From a virus, in IMG/VR virus record IMGVR_UViG_3300025410_000579, positions 1 to 29,746 of that record: DNA of 29,746 bases; one strand, given 5' to 3'. The notes under the pieces were generated by a model. That model searched no databases. It had not been told where the DNA came from and saw only the letters and a program-made list of their open reading frames with translations. Below are positions 10,555-28,692 of the stretch, piece after piece. The translations under genes and the position numbers were made by a program. Every line of letters starts with the position of its first letter. The first letter of the stretch is position 1.

Positions 10555-10708
10555 AAAAGTATGGCGCCTTTGGGCAAAATCTCTTGGTGAGAAAACAGGT
10601 AGTACGGATCAAGAAGCAGATAAAATTGCTTGTATTCGTACTGCTATTGTGTTATCATATATTATAACAAACTGCTTTATAGTAGCAGGTGTTGTTCGTC
10701 ACTGGTGA
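10535..10708 (+). CDS. Small single-helix membrane protein (57 aa), conserved phage type
   Basis: Begins at ATG 10535 inside the 3' end of the cupin gene and ends at TGA 10706-10708. The sequence MENGIIKKVWRLWAKSLGEK followed by an acidic TDQEADKIA segment, a hydrophobic helix (IRTAIVLSYIITNCFIVAGV) and the end VVRHW matches a small protein I recognise from T4-like marine phages; function unknown. One membrane helix is predicted, with the N-terminus cytoplasmic by the positive-inside rule. Its last 32 bases overlap, tail to tail, the end of the minus-strand endonuclease gene. Confidence 0.8.
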   Translation: MENGIIKKVWRLWAKSLGEKTGSTDQEADKIACIRTAIVLSYIITNCFIVAGVVRHW

Positions 10709-11324
10709 TTATTTTGTTTAATTTATAAAGACTTATTTTTAATTTAACCATAGCATCTGCTTTACACTCATAAAAAACACCGTTGATTATAACAGGAGTC
10801 CTATTGGGTGATTTTTGTTTTCCTTTTACACCCTTATTCCAAGGCACATTTCCTTTAAGAGTATCAGATATTTTTTTCTTTTGTTCGGCACTCATAGGTT
10901 TTTGGTAATTATGATTGTTGATTCCAGATTTAGATTCGGACATTTTTTTCTTTGTTTCGTCTGATAGTTTTCTATTTTTAGCCGACATTAATATTTTCTT
11001 TCGTCTTTCATTATTATGTTTATAACCTACAACTCCATCTCCGCCTAGTGTTGAATTATAACCGTTATTAAACGAATTATATTCTTTTATAAATTTCAGT
11101 TCCATTGTTTCTAAACAATGTTTTCCATCTTTAGATTGATATACAACTTCCCATTCAAAATTATCTCATCCATATTTCTTGATAGCATTATAAAATTTAG
11201 ATGTTCTTTCTTTATATTCAAAATGATGTTTGTGTTTTCTGCGTGGCCATTTAGAATCAAAACCAATATATGATTTACCATTAATCTTATTTGTGGCTTT
11301 ATAAATTGAATATATTTTGGACAT
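10677..11324 (-). pseudogene. GIY-YIG homing endonuclease with NUMOD modules, interrupted by an in-frame TGA
   Basis: Reading the minus strand from ATG 11324 gives a GIY-YIG nuclease N-terminus (IYSIYKATNKINGKSYIG, then RRKHKHHFEY), a TGA at 11168-11166, and then continuous frame to TAA 10677. Past the stop the frame carries D-N-F-E-W-E-V-V, the G-Y-N-S-T-L-G-G-D-G motif, two NUMOD3 repeats (KLSDETKKKMSESKSG and MSAEQKKKISDTLKG) and a C-terminal NUMOD1-like segment (VFYECKADAMVKLKIS). The TGA falls in the usual KYGxDNF-W region where Trp (TGG) is expected, so a single G-to-A change explains it. An internal Met gives a 142-residue fragment lacking the catalytic domain. As TGA is a stop elsewhere here, this is probably a recently inactivated free-standing homing gene. 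It is AT-rich and opposite in strand to its neighbours. Confidence 0.88.
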
Positions 11325-11329
11325 ACATT

Positions 11330-11337
11330 TATTTATC
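11330..11337 (-). promoter_or_regulatory. Late-promoter-like octamer for the minus-strand endonuclease
   Basis: On the minus strand GATAAATA (11337 to 11330) matches the T4 late consensus TATAAATA at seven of eight positions. The predicted start, about six bases downstream, falls on the A of ATG 11324. No Shine-Dalgarno is visible, so the message would be leaderless if this is right. Confidence 0.4.
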
Positions 11338-11355
11338 ATTGCGGGTGTAATATGG

Positions 11356-13061: not shown

Positions 13062-14086
13062 TCGCCCGTATTGGATTTGCGTGTAAATGGATTGATCACG
13101 CAGAACAATGCGATGGTATTAAATCCACTGATGATGCCAAACAGTACAACACAGGAAGTACAACCGTTGCCTGGCTTAACCGCCAGACTCGTAATGTAGC
13201 CGAACAAAAACTTTGGGACCTAATGGTAGGTAACATTGAAGCGGTTAGAAAACTTGTAGAAAGGGTAGGGGGTTTAGATGAACATTTACGAATGGTACGT
13301 ATTGGTAGCGATATATTGCCTGTTTATACTCACGATGACTGGCGTTATTTTTGGCATCGTTCTGACATCATTGAATACTGTGAACGCCACTTTGGACAAG
13401 TGGGTGATGATGCTCGTAGGCGGATGGTGCGTCTCAGTTTTCATCCGGGCCAGTTTACAGTTCTGGCATCAGATAATCCTGCCATTGTCGATCGTAGTAT
13501 AGAGGAGTTCGAATATCATGCAACAATGGCCCGTTGGATGGGATTTGGCAAAAGTTTCCAAGACTTTAAAATCAACGTACACATTGCCGGCAGACAAGGC
13601 CCCGAAGGTATCAGGTTGGCCTATCAACGTTTATCGCCCGAAGCCCGCAATTGTATTACTATCGAAAACGAGGAGATAAGCTATGGATTGGATGACTGCC
13701 TTAGTATTTGTGATTTGGTTCCTATCGTTCTGGATATTCATCATCATTGGATTAAAACAGGAGAGTACATCTCCCCCGTGGACTCCCGTGTTGAAAAAGT
13801 TATTCAGTCTTGGCGTGGTGTCAGGCCTACTATGCATTATTCTGTTAGTCGCGAAGATTTACTCATTGGTCACGATCCACTAATACTTCCTAATCATTCA
13901 CAACTTTTAAACGAAGGTTACAAAAAGGGAAAGCTCAGAGCACATTCTGACTTTTATTGGAATATAAAAGCAAATGAATGGGCCTTGAGCTTTACAAAAA
14001 CACACGATATTATGTGTGAGTCCAAGTCAAAAAATCTGGCTAGTTTTGCACTCGCCAAACAGGCTAAAGAATTAGGCTTTCTTTGA
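13058..14086 (+). CDS. uvsE: UV-damage endonuclease (UvdE/UvsE), TIM-barrel nuclease
   Basis: A 342-residue homologue of UVDE, which nicks DNA 5' to pyrimidine dimers and 6-4 photoproducts and starts alternative excision repair. Seen: RIGFACKW at the N-terminus, a T-T-V-A-W-L-N-R motif (residues ~35-42), the metal-binding strand L-S-F-H-P-G-Q-F-T-V-L, H-I-A-G around 175, E-N-E-E near 208 and V-L-D-I-H-H-H-W-I near 228. Length and order fit the family (PF03851). A phage of sunlit water would benefit from such repair. No in-frame stop or lost metal ligand is visible. The 3' end overlaps the antisense gene by 15 bases. Confidence 0.92.
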   Translation: MIARIGFACKWIDHAEQCDGIKSTDDAKQYNTGSTTVAWLNRQTRNVAEQKLWDLMVGNIEAVRKLVERVGGLDEHLRMVRIGSDILPVYTHDDWRYFWHRSDIIEYCERHFGQVGDDARRRMVRLSFHPGQFTVLASDNPAIVDRSIEEFEYHATMARWMGFGKSFQDFKINVHIAGRQGPEGIRLAYQRLSPEARNCITIENEEISYGLDDCLSICDLVPIVLDIHHHWIKTGEYISPVDSRVEKVIQSWRGVRPTMHYSVSREDLLIGHDPLILPNHSQLLNEGYKKGKLRAHSDFYWNIKANEWALSFTKTHDIMCESKSKNLASFALAKQAKELGFL

Positions 14087-14380
14087 ACGAGGAGCTTTTT
14101 TGGCGGCTGGTGTTTTTGCGGCCTTTGGCTTTGCGGCCTTTGGTGCTTTAACTGCCTTAGTAGCTTTAGGTTCACGTGGTTTACGTGGCTTTTTGGCTGG
14201 TGCAGTTTCTACAACCGGGGCAACTTCAACTACAGGAGCTGGAGCTTCTTCTTTGGCGGTAAACTTGATTCCGTTGTCTGAAGATGTTTCTGCTTCAACA
14301 ACTGTCTTAGCAGGTGCTCTGCGATTAAACCAAATTGCAACACCTATAGCTACAATAACAATAGCAATAATAATTTCCAT
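14072..14380 (-). CDS. Membrane-anchored Lys/Ala/Pro-rich protein, histone-H1-like tail (102 aa)
   Basis: The only intact minus-strand gene. Residues 2-18 (EIIIAIVIVAIGVAIWF) form an N-terminal membrane helix followed by R-R, so the rest faces the cytoplasm. Residues ~22-60 are acidic and Pro/Val-rich. Residues ~61-102 consist of AAK/AKP/KAP-type repeats with K-P-R-K-P-R-E-P, like the C-terminal tails of histone H1 and bacterial HU/AlgP-like proteins that bind DNA. A clear AAAGGA SD precedes ATG 14380 on the minus strand. It converges on uvsE with a 15-base overlap and diverges from sod. A role in tethering DNA to the membrane is inference. Confidence 0.8.
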   Translation of the reverse strand: MEIIIAIVIVAIGVAIWFNRRAPAKTVVEAETSSDNGIKFTAKEEAPAPVVEVAPVVETAPAKKPRKPREPKATKAVKAPKAAKPKAAKTPAAKKAPRSKKA

Positions 14381-14432: not shown

Positions 14433-15005
14433 ATGCAAAAAAGTTTAACTGAATTAAAACAAATTATTATAGAAGCCGAAACTAAAAAAGAAAAACTTGT
14501 TTTAGAATCGCTGCCATACGATCGCGGAGATTTACAACCTGTAATGAGCGAAGATACCATAGATTATCATTATGGTAAATTAGCCAAAGGATATGTGGAT
14601 CGTTATAATAAAGGCGAGGGGGACCCTGATTTTAATCTAGCAGGTGCTTTCCTACACAATATATTTTTTCCGCAATTAAAAAAGCCCGTCGGTAGTAATA
14701 AACCGTTTGATGCTAGTGCCGAATTCATTGACAAGCATTTTAAAGGTGGATTCGACGAACTTAAGAGCACAGTTGAAACCGTCGCAATGAAAATACAAGG
14801 TAGTGGTTGGATATATCTTGCAAGAAATGGGCAGGTCAAAACAATAACAAATCATCAGGTACGTCAAGATATTATATTGTTGATTGACTGGTGGGAACAT
14901 TCTTTCGCTTTAGACTATCGAGCAGACAAGCAAAAATACCTAAAAAACATATGGCGTATAATTGATTGGTCTGTTATAAATGATAGATTAAGTATAAGGA
15001 CCTGA
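14433..15005 (+). CDS. Iron/manganese superoxide dismutase (phage type)
   Basis: Dismutates superoxide. Metal ligands are in the expected order: H46 (YHYGKLAKGYVDRYN), H75 (GAFLHNIFFPQL), D152 and H156 (D-W-W-E-H-S-F-A-L-D-Y, corresponding to the DxWEHAYYLDY signature). The C-terminal half, from ETVAMKIQGSGWIYLARNG onward, is the Fe/Mn-SOD C domain. The first ~25 residues are an extra helical segment with no signal peptide. The last 19 codons (14949-15005) are a replacement tail: a second diverged copy of the same tail lies after the HNH gene. The 3' end also carries the AAGGA SD of the HNH gene. Confidence 0.92.
   Translation: MQKSLTELKQIIIEAETKKEKLVLESLPYDRGDLQPVMSEDTIDYHYGKLAKGYVDRYNKGEGDPDFNLAGAFLHNIFFPQLKKPVGSNKPFDASAEFIDKHFKGGFDELKSTVETVAMKIQGSGWIYLARNGQVKTITNHQVRQDIILLIDWWEHSFALDYRADKQKYLKNIWRIIDWSVINDRLSIRT
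14949..15005 (+). repeat. Upstream copy of the sod 3' tail (direct repeat with 15473-15526)
   Basis: Encodes I-W-R-I-I-D-W-S-V-I-N-D-R then L-S-I-R-T-stop. Twelve of the first 13 residues equal those encoded at 15473. At DNA level 31 of the first 39 bases agree, and apart from one codon (ATA versus GCT) all differences are synonymous. Confidence 0.9.
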
Positions 15006-15006
15006 A

Positions 15007-15489
15007 ATGAAAAGAAAAAATAATAATATTCATAGAAAAATTTACGAAGAATATCACCAATGTTCTTTATTACCATATGTAGAAATTCATCACATTGACG
15101 GAAATCATAAAAATAATTCTATCGAGAATCTAATGGCTGTTACAGCACAAGAACATTTTGAAATACATAAAAAACAAGGTGATAAGGCCGCGGCAGCTCT
15201 TATAGGAATCAGGGCAGGTATTAGTTCGGAAGAAAGAAAACAACTTAACAGAGAACAAGCGATTAAAAATAATGCGTTAGGAGTATCGGGATTTTCTTTA
15301 GGACACGCTAGTTCTGCAGGTAAAGTTGGCGGAAAAAAGGGTAGAGAATATGCTAAAAAACATAAAACTGGTATATTTGCACTCAGTCCAGAAAAGAATA
15401 AACAAAGACACTTTAATTCAGTAGTATCAAGATTAATTAAAAATGGCAAGGCTAGTGCTTGGCCCAAACATCATATGGAGGGCTATTGA
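15007..15489 (+). CDS. HNH homing endonuclease inserted at the 3' end of sod
   Basis: A 160-residue HNH nuclease. The beta-beta-alpha metal core is V-E-I-H28-H29-I-D31-G-N with N41 and H50/H54 (NLMAVTAQEHFEIHKKQGDK). The rest carries the GxSSAGKVGGKKG and GIFALSPEKNKQRH motifs common in phage HNH homing enzymes. It starts one base after the sod stop, using an SD that lies in the sod tail. Its last codons (K-H-H-M-E-G-Y) read the vestigial sod tail in another frame. Free-standing homing endonucleases move by cutting an allele that lacks them; here the inserted unit spans roughly 14949-15472 and its target is the sod 3' end. Confidence 0.9.
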   Translation: MKRKNNNIHRKIYEEYHQCSLLPYVEIHHIDGNHKNNSIENLMAVTAQEHFEIHKKQGDKAAAALIGIRAGISSEERKQLNREQAIKNNALGVSGFSLGHASSAGKVGGKKGREYAKKHKTGIFALSPEKNKQRHFNSVVSRLIKNGKASAWPKHHMEGY

Positions 15490-15526
15490 TTGGTCAGTTA
15501 TTAATGACAGAATTAACTTAAAGTAA
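15473..15526 (+). pseudogene. Vestigial original 3' end of sod, displaced by the HNH insertion
   Basis: Encodes I-W-R-A-I-D-W-S-V-I-N-D-R-I-N-L-K-stop, in sod-type frame but cut off from the gene body by about 0.5 kb. It overlaps the end of the HNH gene in a different frame. It probably represents the ancestral sod terminus and marks the right border of the inserted unit. Confidence 0.85.
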
Positions 15527-15572: not shown

Positions 15573-15803
15573 ATGCCCAACAATGTCACAGCAACAGTAG
15601 AAATTGAAGAAATTGAAGAATTTGAAGAAACAGAAGATTTTGGCAAGGATGATTATGGTTTTATCCTTGGCCCAGATGGAGAACTTAAAACATTTATGAT
15701 TCCAGAGCATCTAATGGATGATCCTCCAGAAGAAGTAAAAATTATATTAAGTATATTTGGAATCGACAATATACATGATTTAGAGAACAGAACACTGCAC
15801 TAA
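15573..15803 (+). CDS. Small very acidic protein (76 aa)
   Basis: I use ATG 15573, which follows TGGAGA; an in-frame ATG at 15543 lies in the promoter itself. The N-terminal half alternates Glu with hydrophobic residues (VEIEEIEEFEETEDF), the C-terminal half is globular-looking (GFILGPDGELKTFMIPEHL, then P-P-E-E-V-K-I-I-L-S-I-F-G-I). The net charge is highly negative; DNA mimicry is a possibility that charge alone cannot prove. No family recognised with certainty. Confidence 0.65.
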   Translation: MPNNVTATVEIEEIEEFEETEDFGKDDYGFILGPDGELKTFMIPEHLMDDPPEEVKIILSIFGIDNIHDLENRTLH

Positions 15804-22400: not shown

Positions 22401-23159
22401 ATGACAGCAATTACCAATTTACCATCAGTCAACACACTTACAAATCAAATTATAATACCGGTAGTTGATGGGTCTGATGGAAATAAAACTAAAAAAATTA
22501 ATATAGAACAAATTGTTTCCTTGTCAAGGGGTCCACAGGGTAATGTAGGACCTACAGGCCCGAATGGAGGGCCTCAGGGACCTGCCGGAGTTACTGGACC
22601 TACAGGAAATCAAGGACCCACAGGTGCTGGTGCTACCGGTCCAACTGGGCCAAGGGGAAATATTGGACCCACGGGATTAGGCTCAACTGGACCACAGGGT
22701 CCTACTGGTGCCGCGAGCAACGTTGTAGGACCAACAGGTGCACAAGGACCCACTGGTCCAGCAGGTACAGGTGGTGGTTCATTTACAAGAACATTGTCAT
22801 CAGCAAGTACCGCTCCGTTGGCCAGCGGTGCTACGGCTTATAATAATTGGCCAGGATTTAAAAGCTATGCAATATTAAAATTACAAACTTCGGCAGCATC
22901 TTGGGTTAGATTGTATACTTCTAATGATGCAAGAACTGCGGATTCATCTAGAGTACAAAGTATAGATCCGTTGCCAGGATCCGGAGTAATACTCGATGTT
23001 ATAACAACTGGAAGTTCAGCTCAACTTATTAGTCCTGCTGTGATAGGATTCAATGATGAAGATCCTACAACATCAACAATTTGTGTATCAATAACAAATC
23101 TTACTAGTTCAACTCAATCATTAGGATTGACAATGACTTTATTGCCATTAGAAGTATAA
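22401..23159 (+). CDS. Collagen-like tail fibre (252 aa)
   Basis: An N-terminal segment ([18 protein letters not shown]) followed by V-V-D-G-S-D is the usual virion-attachment element of phage fibres with a collagen shaft. Residues ~44-128 are Gly-X-Y triplets rich in G-P-T/G-P-Q, which should form a triple helix. Residues ~130-252 are a beta-rich C-terminal head ([49 protein letters not shown]) that may bind the receptor or trimerise. AGGA lies 7 bases before the ATG. Probably a short secondary fibre. Confidence 0.85.
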
Positions 23160-25353: not shown

Positions 25354-25374
25354 CATTATCATTAGTTGATAATT

Positions 25375-28300
25375 ATGACCAGACTTACCAGACCACTACC
25401 CTCATCTATACCGCATTTAACAAATCCTACCGAAGGAACCACACAATTTATTGTGCAAGATTCTGCGGTAACACAATATTTGACTGTAGATCAAGCATCA
25501 AGCCTGCTTGTTTTATCAGCACTTTCACATTTAAATAATTTTACACAAGGGCCGCAAGGACCCACTGGGTCACAGGGGTCAACTGGTCCAACTGGTATTT
25601 TAGGACCTACTGGTGCAACAGGTAATATCGGACCTACTGGACCACAAGGAGTAACCGGCTCTCAAGGACCTACTGGAGTACAAGGGCCGACTGGACCACA
25701 AGGCACACAAGGGCCAACTGGAATTAAAGGTGCAACTGGAGCCACCGGCTCTCAAGGTAATTTAGGTCCAACAGGACCATCAGGTTCAGGACCAACTGGT
25801 CCTACAGGAACTGGTGCTACTGGACCACAAGGCCCCATAGGAAATACAGGTACACAAGGCCCCACTGGAGCAGGTGCTACTGGTGCTACTGGTGCTACTG
25901 GTTCTCAAGGTAATTTAGGACCCACCGGTGCGGCTGGTACATCAGTTAATATTATAGGTTCGACCTCAACCAGTGCAGGAATTTTAGGAGTAGACCCAAG
26001 CCCAGTCAACGGTGACGGTGTTATTGCAGAAGATACTGGACATTTATGGGTTTACAACGGAACATCATTTGTTGATGTTGGAACAATCAAAGGTCCAACT
26101 GGACAACAAGGCCCAACTGGTCCAACCGGAGCTCAAAGCAATGTTGCCGGTCCAACAGGTCCACAGGGTCCAACTGGCGCAACAGGCAGTACAGGAGCAA
26201 CAGGATTTGGAGCAACTGGTAACACAGGGCCTACTGGTGCTACCGGACCAGGCGGAACAGGTAGTGTTGGAGCAACCGGTGCTACTGGACCTACAGGAAC
26301 ACAAGGTACTGTTGGTAACACAGGGCCTACTGGTGCTACTGGACCAGGCGGAACAGGTAGTGTTGGCCCAACCGGACCTACAGGTATACAAGGTACTGTT
26401 GGTAACACAGGTCCAACAGGAGCAACAGGCCCGGGTGGAACAGGTAGTGTTGGAGCAACCGGTGCTACTGGACCAACAGGAACACAAGGACCTATTGGAC
26501 CACAGGGACCAACTGGTTCCGCAGGTAGTACTGGTATTAATGGAGCAACCGGTGCTACTGGACCAACAGGAACACAAGGACCTACTGGAACACAAGGACC
26601 TACTGGACCACAGGGACCAACTGGTTCCGCAGGTAGTACTGGTATTAATGGAGCAACTGGGCCAACAGGAACACAAGGACCTACTGGACCACAGGGACCA
26701 ACTGGTTCCGCAGGTAGTACTGGTATTAATGGAGCAACTGGGCCAACAGGAACACAAGGACCTACTGGTAGTACTGGTCCGGTTGGCGGAAGTAATGGTC
26801 AAATATTATATAATAATAGTGGAGTTGCTTCCGGTAGCAGTAATCTAACATTTGACGGAAGCAATGTAGTATTAGCAGGCAATTTAACTGTAGGTGGCAC
26901 ATTAGCATTTAATGGTACTGCTACTTATATTTTAAGTACAAATACATATTATACTGATAACATCTTAGAAATACACGTTCCACCTAGTGGTGTTAACGGG
27001 TTTTGGACCACAGACGATGGAAAAGACATTGGTATTCGTATGCACTATTATAATGGTGCTGATCAAAATGCCGCGTTGGTATTAGCCGACAATACAAAAT
27101 GGTTAGAATGGTATCAAACAGGAGCAGAAGTCAACGGAGACTTTACTTCTGCAACATACGGAACATTTAAGACAGGTTCTATTGTTCTAGTCAATACAAC
27201 TGCATCCGTTAGCACTGTTACAGGAGCATTAACTGTTGCTGGTGGTGTTGGTATTGGCGGTAGTTTATATGTTGGAAATACCTCAACCTTCTACGGAGTA
27301 AGTGGCAATAGCGATTATAAAGCACCTATTATCAAACTTGATATGTTGGGTAATGTGTTTGGTGGTATTGGAGCCAGTGCTAATGGTGTAGTCAAGGGTG
27401 GCATTTCTTGGGATACAAACGGTGACATGTATATTGACTCTATTGGAGGTTATTTTTTATTCAACGATCTTGCTGGTGGAAATAATTTAGCATTTATCAA
27501 CGGAAATCAATACTTTTTAAGTGTAACACAAGGTGCTGCCGCTAAGATTAGTACCCTTAATGTTGGCCTAAATGGAACAGCTAGTACAAGTACAACTACA
27601 GGTGCATTAACCGTACAAGGTGGCGTAGGTATTGGCGGAAATATTAATATTGGCGGAACTGCTTATATAAATGGTTCGCAGGTTATTACTACAGGAACCA
27701 TAGCAACATTTGCAAGTCTAGGACCAACAGGTGCCCAAGGGCCAACTGGGCCACAAGGATCTACTGGATCTAATGGTGCTACAGGAGCACAAGGACCCAC
27801 CGGTGCTCAAGGCCCAACAGGACCACAAGGAAGTCAAGGTAATGCTGGTGCTACAGGAGCACAAGGACCCACAGGACCACAAGGTATTGGTTATAGTTTA
27901 ACAGCAACTGATAGTGCTACAATTGGTAGTTCAGGATCATATTCCTGGGCAACAAATGGCTCATCATTGACCAGCCCTCTTGTAGCCGGTAGCAGAATTC
28001 GTGTAACAGTATCTGGTAGTTCATCAAATTGGATAGAAGGAGTTGTTACAGGCTGGTCAAGCTCTATTCTAAATATGACTGCTGATCTAAGTTCAGGTTC
28101 AGGAGCATATTCAAATTGGGTTATTAATGTTGCTGGACAACCAGGAGTAACTGGACCACAAGGATCTACTGGTGCACAGGGACCCCAAGGTGCACAGGGA
28201 CCGACTGGTGCCAACGGTACAAATGGAGTTACAGGTCCAACCGGTAGTACTGGGCCGGTTGGGGGTAGTTCAGGACAAGTATTATATAACAGCAGTGGTT

Positions 28301-28692
28301 CTGCCTCAGGAAGTAGTAATTTAACTTTTGATGGAACAGCATTGACTGCAATATTCAAAGGTTATAAAGAAACAGTTAATACATTAGGCAATACTAGTTC
28401 TAATACTAATTTAGATTTGAGTACTGCTAATGTATTTGATATCACATTAACTGGTAGCCCAACATTTACATTTACAAATGCCCCAGCATCTGGTACATTA
28501 ATATCAGCTACGGTTATTTTACGTCAAGATAGTACAGGTAACAGATCACCGACATTTACTAATGCACATTACACAGAAGGAGCTACTCCTGTATATTCAA
28601 CTGGGGCAAACCAAATAGATGTACTTACATTCTTTACAGTTAATGGTGGTTCGTACTGGTTTGGCACATTTGCTATGGCCGCAGTTTCATAA
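25375..28692 (+). CDS. Large collagen-like tail fibre (1105 aa)
   Basis: ATG 25375 ([20 protein letters not shown]) is preferred over the in-frame TTG at 25366. After a short virion-attachment segment (to ~57) come long runs of Gly-X-Y triplets (~58-190, ~242-465, ~782-840 and ~922-960), broken by small beta modules: a [18 protein letters not shown] module (~200-240), a [13 protein letters not shown] module at ~471 that recurs near 962, and GGVGIGG-type modules with a globular head (~500-770). The final ~100 residues form a beta-rich tip. Expected to be a trimeric fibre. There is no clear SD. The repeats make its length prone to change. Confidence 0.88.
26221..26480 (+). repeat. Collagen-coding repeats, units about 96 and 87 bp
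   Basis: AACACAGGGCCTACTGG begins at 26221 and again at 26317, and a close relative (AACACAGGTCCAACAGG) at 26404. Each unit holds the [12 protein letters not shown] segment. All spacings are multiples of nine or three bases, keeping the Gly-X-Y frame. Confidence 0.8.
26501..26770 (+). repeat. Collagen-coding tandem repeat, 81-bp exact unit
   Basis: CACAGGGACCAACTGGTTCC occurs at 26501, 26609 and 26690. The copies starting at 26609 and 26690 agree over 80 consecutive bases; the first is separated by 108 bases. Each unit contains a non-collagen A-G-S-T-G-I-N-G break. Recent expansion is the simplest reading. Confidence 0.88.

Follow-up and report, generated by a model that had tools for sequence, protein, structure and literature searches.

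Hybrids of mitochondrial genes formed by mobile ORFs are known in fungi, namely for atp6, atp9, cox2 and nad3 of Glomus (PMC3630166) and for atp6 of Allomyces macrogynus (Paquin et al. 1994, as cited in PMC3630166). In these hybrids, an endonuclease ORF is accompanied by a foreign C-terminal segment that replaces the tail of the gene in frame, while the native C-terminus lies downstream of the ORF and is partly deleted or silent; the native and inserted tails encode very similar proteins but show many DNA differences (PMC3630166). In T4-like phages, the free-standing Seg/Mob genes (mobE, segF and segG) are located beside their targets and the flank is co-converted; the cut site is distant from the insertion site and belongs to a region that is conserved and functional (PMC2988022, PMC12724721). 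Their products can combine an N-terminal HNH part with a C-terminal binding region, and protection comes from donor sequence taking the place of the target (PMC2988022, PMC12724721); for free-standing homing genes, protection of the carrier is assumed to come from this replacement (PMC12724721). The HNH genes mobA of T4, in the topoisomerase gene, and mobE of Aeh1, in nrdA, occur in or at a core enzyme gene whose reading frame is affected. Finally, one-sided illegitimate break repair has been documented in the homing of the T4 td intron, with homology on one side and microhomology junctions and degradation on the other (PMC2988022).

Here we describe a phage locus in which an HNH gene adjoins sod, the gene for superoxide dismutase (SOD). 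The whole stretch of DNA analysed (29,746 nt), called the window, is a metagenomic IMG/VR virus record (IMGVR_UViG_3300025410_000579). The order and reading frames of the fungal gene hybrids were found in it, with an endonuclease ORF, a substitute C-terminal segment in frame and a native C-terminus downstream of the ORF; the foreign origin of the first tail is deduced from relatives. The fungal cases involve LAGLIDADG or GIY-YIG endonucleases in mitochondria, whereas here an HNH_3 gene, a phage sod, near-isogenic empty sites and several junction types are present. Integrases that rebuild their tRNA target gene, with which the locus had previously been compared, resemble it in part but fit less well than the fungal hybrids. 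The features of the Seg/Mob genes listed above are shared by the locus, as far as its presumed target is concerned. In contrast to it, the descriptions of the T4 cases compared do not mention a displaced tail remnant; here homology is often lacking on the right side, and the gene bears scars. The mobA and mobE insertions split the host gene into two polypeptides, whereas here the substitute tail restores a full-length enzyme. The td case was a laboratory construct with an intron, whereas here we deal with natural alleles and a free-standing gene. A search of the open-access literature for phage sod genes with homing genes gave no relevant papers. The principle is known from fungal mitochondrial hybrids and T4 co-conversion, and the phage, HNH and sod case looks new.

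Organization of the sod locus and its two tails

The sod gene (14433–15005, plus strand) encodes an Fe/Mn superoxide dismutase of 190 aa matching Pfam Sod_Fe_C (E = 4.5e-20) and Sod_Fe_N (E = 2.2e-10), and the metal ligands of the family are recognisable in YHYG, FLHNIFF and DWWEH. The D-W-W-E-H codons (GACTGGTGGGAACAT, 14886–14900, plus strand) form the presumed target or cleavage zone and correspond to the usual left edge of the swap in relatives. They are followed in the window by S-F, the usual residues being A-W. The sod tail joined to the HNH gene (14901–15005, plus strand) is probably the incoming donor tail, judging from matched pairs of relatives. Its last codons, SIRT, occupy the position of the sod stop and the HNH leader in other carriers, and it is thanks to this upstream tail that sod of the window is full length. 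The ATG of the putative free-standing HNH_3 homing-endonuclease gene (15007–15489, plus strand, 160 aa) lies 1 nt past the sod stop. Besides HNH_3 (E = 6.8e-9), its product matches several PHROG HNH endonuclease families. A displaced remnant of the native sod tail, detached from sod (IWRAIDWSVINDRINLK followed by a stop; 15473–15526, plus strand), was recognised by tblastn, DNA alignment and the match to the flank of the empty locus L002. The native downstream gene (MPNNVTATVE..., 15573–15803, plus strand) is the same neighbour that is found in the empty loci L002 and L008 and in the occupied L007.

The duplication of a sod tail segment, reported in an earlier note on this DNA, is real. The upstream tail IWRIIDWSVINDR runs from 14949, and the downstream copy, IWRAIDWSVINDR-INLK and a stop, lies at 15473–15526; their 39-nt cores have 8 mismatches, which change one residue (I to A) and are otherwise synonymous. 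The second copy was recovered by tblastn of the tail with an E-value of about 3e-8 and is thus not a chance match, and the local DNA alignment of tail against tail scored 29.5 (z = 10.9). The same search for a second tail in 208 empty relatives gave a top score of 20.5, apparently an AT-rich chance match. Candidate second tails in L116 and L118 (19.5 and 17.5) and in L041 also looked like AT-rich chance alignments and were rejected.

The remnant consists of the last 17 codons and the stop of the old native tail. The last 17 nt of the HNH ORF lie within it, and the HNH stop is borrowed from it out of frame (HHMEGY, then the stop). Together with its flank, the second copy is 78% identical to empty L002 over 320 nt, from −59 to +245 around the L002 sod stop. 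Because it is contiguous with the native flank, as in L002, the second copy is best read as the displaced native tail. This agrees with the earlier reading of the HNH unit as an arrival at the 3′ end of sod: empty relatives have a single tail and then the same downstream gene, which in the window clade, for instance in L002, is the same MxNNVxATVE gene. The expected I-N-L-K ending of empty sites held for part of them, since many clade members end in I/L-N-L-x but L002 ends in ISTKTS.

A clear donor for the upstream tail of the window was not found in a 39-nt comparison with relatives. Its nearest neighbours were empty alleles of the clade, with 6 differences, and the nearest neighbour of the remnant was L275, on the same contig as L002, with 4 differences. 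Since no clear donor emerged, the upstream copy is considered foreign mainly from the anatomy of the locus and from the matched pairs. It should be noted that the closest empty relative of the window in the collections scanned is only 77–78% identical, and the left boundary and the donor in the window are deduced from relatives.

Comparison of occupied and empty alleles

Scans of IMG/VR yielded several hundred sod loci, from which 211 empty and 20 occupied distinct alleles were retained after the removal of duplicates. In all 20 distinct occupied alleles the HNH gene directly follows sod, and the 211 empty alleles have no HNH gene there. The site beside sod is thus polymorphic for presence and absence, and both this comparison and the anatomy of the locus confirm the earlier placement of an HNH unit at the 3′ end of sod.

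The replacement of the tail in the presence of the HNH gene, likewise proposed earlier, was shown by near-isogenic occupied and empty pairs among the relatives. L115 and empty L369 are identical at 359/360 positions up to the H codon of DWWEH, then at only 47/60, after which the HNH gene begins. Similarly, L007 and empty L002 share 97% identity over 470 nt of sod and then 34/60 positions in the tail running into the HNH gene. In L126, L088, L089 and L091 the switch is situated about 25 nt upstream of WEH. The drop of identity in the tail was greater in carriers than in comparisons among empty nearest neighbours (Mann–Whitney p = 2e-5), with little or no drop against a distant nearest empty allele in L001, L086, L087, L116–L118 and L128. 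The swap in relatives therefore starts further upstream than position 14949, near DWWEH (14886–14900 in the window), and the matched pairs of relatives show co-conversion of the sequence flanking the presumed target.

The right ends are more diverse. Relative to the native sod stop, they lie at −59 in the window, at about −35 in L126, at −13 in L111, at −4 in several loci, at +12 in L007 and at +102 in L115. L007 rejoins the L002 flank at +12, and in L115 the 99.7% identity to L369 resumes after the HNH gene from +102. The tail and HNH gene of L109 and L111 are the same as those of L115, and L111 rejoins an L369-like flank at −13 (100% over 314 nt), where the C-terminus of the HNH protein (PRVG) reads into the remnant. 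The right ends at +102 in L115 and −13 in L109–L114 apparently reflect two acquisitions, or one acquisition and a later deletion. In L126, the tail DFWRIVNWDVVNERL precedes the HNH gene and the remnant KINWDVCNERL with its stop follows it. In L084, L086 and L087, among others, the right edge falls at −4, where the stop and the start of the following gene overlap, and has a seamless appearance. In the sequences aligned, the left edge recurs in one short zone near DWWEH, and the right edge is irregular. Natural phage populations offer a readable series of presumed homing products, with near-isogenic alleles, a left switch point and several right ends.

On the tree of the sod body, the carrier state changes 16 times (16–18 times on short body windows), and on the tail tree 11 times, or 14 times without the first 9 nt. 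The fewer changes on the tail tree are modestly consistent with the tail travelling together with the HNH gene; without the first 9 nt, carriers cluster on this tree to a modest degree.

A passive mosaic exchange, in which the HNH gene hitch-hikes at a recombination junction and the end of sod is swapped without nuclease-driven homing, is an unlikely origin of these patterns. The strict linkage of gene and target in many lineages, the carrier state having changed 16 times on the body tree, speaks against it, as do the alteration of all carriers at the same codons and, in several pairs with varying right ends, a left switch that keeps to the same 25-nt zone. Nevertheless, phage genomes are mosaics, nuclease genes are known at exchange boundaries (PMC10448857), and a homologous crossover would naturally fall in the conserved DWWEH run.

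The position of the HNH gene between two tail copies also recalls a transposon-like insertion that duplicated the sod tail, the copies having diverged afterwards. We regard this as very improbable, given that 8 of 39 nt differ between the copies, mostly synonymously and including AGG versus CGT, that the second copy is absent or shorter in other carriers, and that in matched pairs the change is found in the tail joined to the HNH gene. Even less credence can be given to an intron comprising 14949–15472 or a similar segment, although the downstream tail has an intact frame and a junction at ATATGG would yield a complete SOD: searches of Rfam at the gathering threshold and at E ≤ 10 gave no match to group I or group II introns, the sod frame with its own tail and stop is complete before the HNH gene, little of the segment lies outside ORFs, and the second tail is absent from nearly all relatives. 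An assembly chimera of two sod alleles could be suspected in a metagenomic virus record, but it is the least probable origin of all. A second, separately listed IMG/VR record (L001, IMGVR_UViG_3300006123_000634) is identical in arrangement, without a mismatch over 8570 nt, and L126, L111 and L007 have structures of this type that end differently.

Presumed target and proposed course of homing

The motif TGGTGGGARCAYGYNTGG was present in 177 of the 211 empty alleles and in none of the 20 occupied ones (0/20). When 75 well-conserved SOD columns were compared between carriers and empties, the two largest losses in carriers were observed at positions 158 (W in 92% of empty versus 30% of occupied alleles) and 153 (W in 98% versus 60%), in the numbering of the window SOD; these two positions flank WEH. 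Since kinship inflates a simple motif test, independent pairs were taken on a sod body tree built without these codons. Motif loss and HNH presence agreed in 8.5 pairs and were opposed in 0 (median sign-test p = 0.008). Both the motif counts and the independent pairs indicate that the carrier's own presumed target is altered. The earlier note had suggested that the recoded tail may remove the target of the nuclease. A changed target in the carrier is retained from this suggestion, but the presumed target is DWWEHxW, about 60 nt upstream of the duplicate, and the synonymous differences within the 39 nt resemble the usual divergence of a donor. L002 and L369, the closest empty siblings of other carriers, lack the full motif because F follows WEHA; they may be partly resistant or past carriers.

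Based on these comparisons, we consider it likely that the HNH gene is a free-standing homing unit whose product cuts near D-W-W-E-H. By homology on the left, the unit and an altered sod tail would be co-converted together, and on the right the joining would be illegitimate. The occupied and empty alleles, the tail switch, the irregular right junctions and the loss of DWWEHxW in carriers are directly seen by comparison, and from them we infer the cleavage, its exact position, the resistance and the direction of transfer. In a phage that lacks the HNH gene, the HNH protein would nick or cut sod within or close to the D-W-W-E-H-A-W codons, which include two metal ligands. The carrier phage would serve as the repair template, so that, starting from the left homology in sod, the sod 3′ end of the carrier, the HNH leader and the HNH gene would be copied. 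The copied tail is presumably resistant because it is altered in the target codons. On the right, where the downstream genes of carrier and recipient often differ, illegitimate or microhomology joining may connect the copied strand to the recipient at an irregular position. The recipient would thereby end up with the HNH gene, with a sod gene that is full length but has a swapped tail, and in some cases with a scar. In the window, the native tail would have lost about 48 nt between the presumed cut and ATATGG, and what was left of it is the scar.

More tentatively, there could exist a class of phage homing units whose cargo is regularly the cleavage-resistant 3′ end of the target gene plus the nuclease, and for which one-sided homing with illegitimate right ends is normal; the chances of this seem a little short of even. 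If it is true, differing downstream genes are no barrier to the entry of such a unit into a phage, and an auxiliary metabolic enzyme repeatedly has its C-terminus remodelled. Already on the main reading, a selfish element has here swapped the C-terminus encoded by an auxiliary metabolic gene and left the gene unbroken. Two questions become testable in this system, namely by what means the genome that carries a free-standing HNH nuclease is protected from it if the insertion leaves the target uninterrupted, and how homing crosses into genomes that are homologous on one side only.

HNH family and neighbouring elements

The assignment of the HNH_3 gene as a free-standing HNH homing gene is well supported by its predicted domain, the polymorphism, the co-conversion and the target change. 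The pattern I-H-H-x-D-G...N-N...N-L...E-H is invariant across 20 HNH members. Relatives sharing the C-terminal region are all located directly downstream of sod wherever upstream DNA is present, the exceptions being HNH loci cut off at a contig end; distant relatives with only the N-terminal HNH part in common are located elsewhere. No member of the family was confirmed in bacterial and archaeal genomes, and in a search of named phages only the N-terminal HNH part was matched, to I-TevIII-like proteins. The predicted fold gave no significant match in Foldseek, with I-HmuI at rank 3 (E = 0.87, TM 0.24), and the sequence profile match to I-HmuI was weak (E = 0.14). PDB sequence and fold searches returned designed repeat proteins and unrelated folds.

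Most carriers contain a T4-like late promoter (ATAAATA) between the sod stop and the HNH start. A hairpin, CTYGTG-GGAA(CA)-CACRAG, with fold z from −3.3 to −7.0 and a C-G to U-A change in the stem, comes next and immediately precedes the HNH ATG. These elements were seen at L084:2973–3003, L087:2956–2991, L123:2957–2985 and in other carriers and are absent from the window. The hairpin of the carriers resembles those that are known to mask ribosome sites in homing genes, mobE among them. HNH genes with the same N-terminal domain also occur in the terminase large subunit gene of L097, L099, L100, L101, L103 and L104. As read from sequence, they appear to lie between split intein halves, in a "fractured gene" arrangement.

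In the window itself, the remains of a second homing endonuclease, apparently frameshifted, were found at 10677–11339 (minus strand), with a GIY-YIG-like start in one frame and a NUMOD3 part in another (phrog_314). A lysine/alanine/proline-rich basic protein is encoded opposite to sod at 14072–14380 (minus strand), and two long collagen-like (GPTGPT) proteins, probably tail proteins, are encoded at 22401–23159 and 25366–28692 (plus strand).
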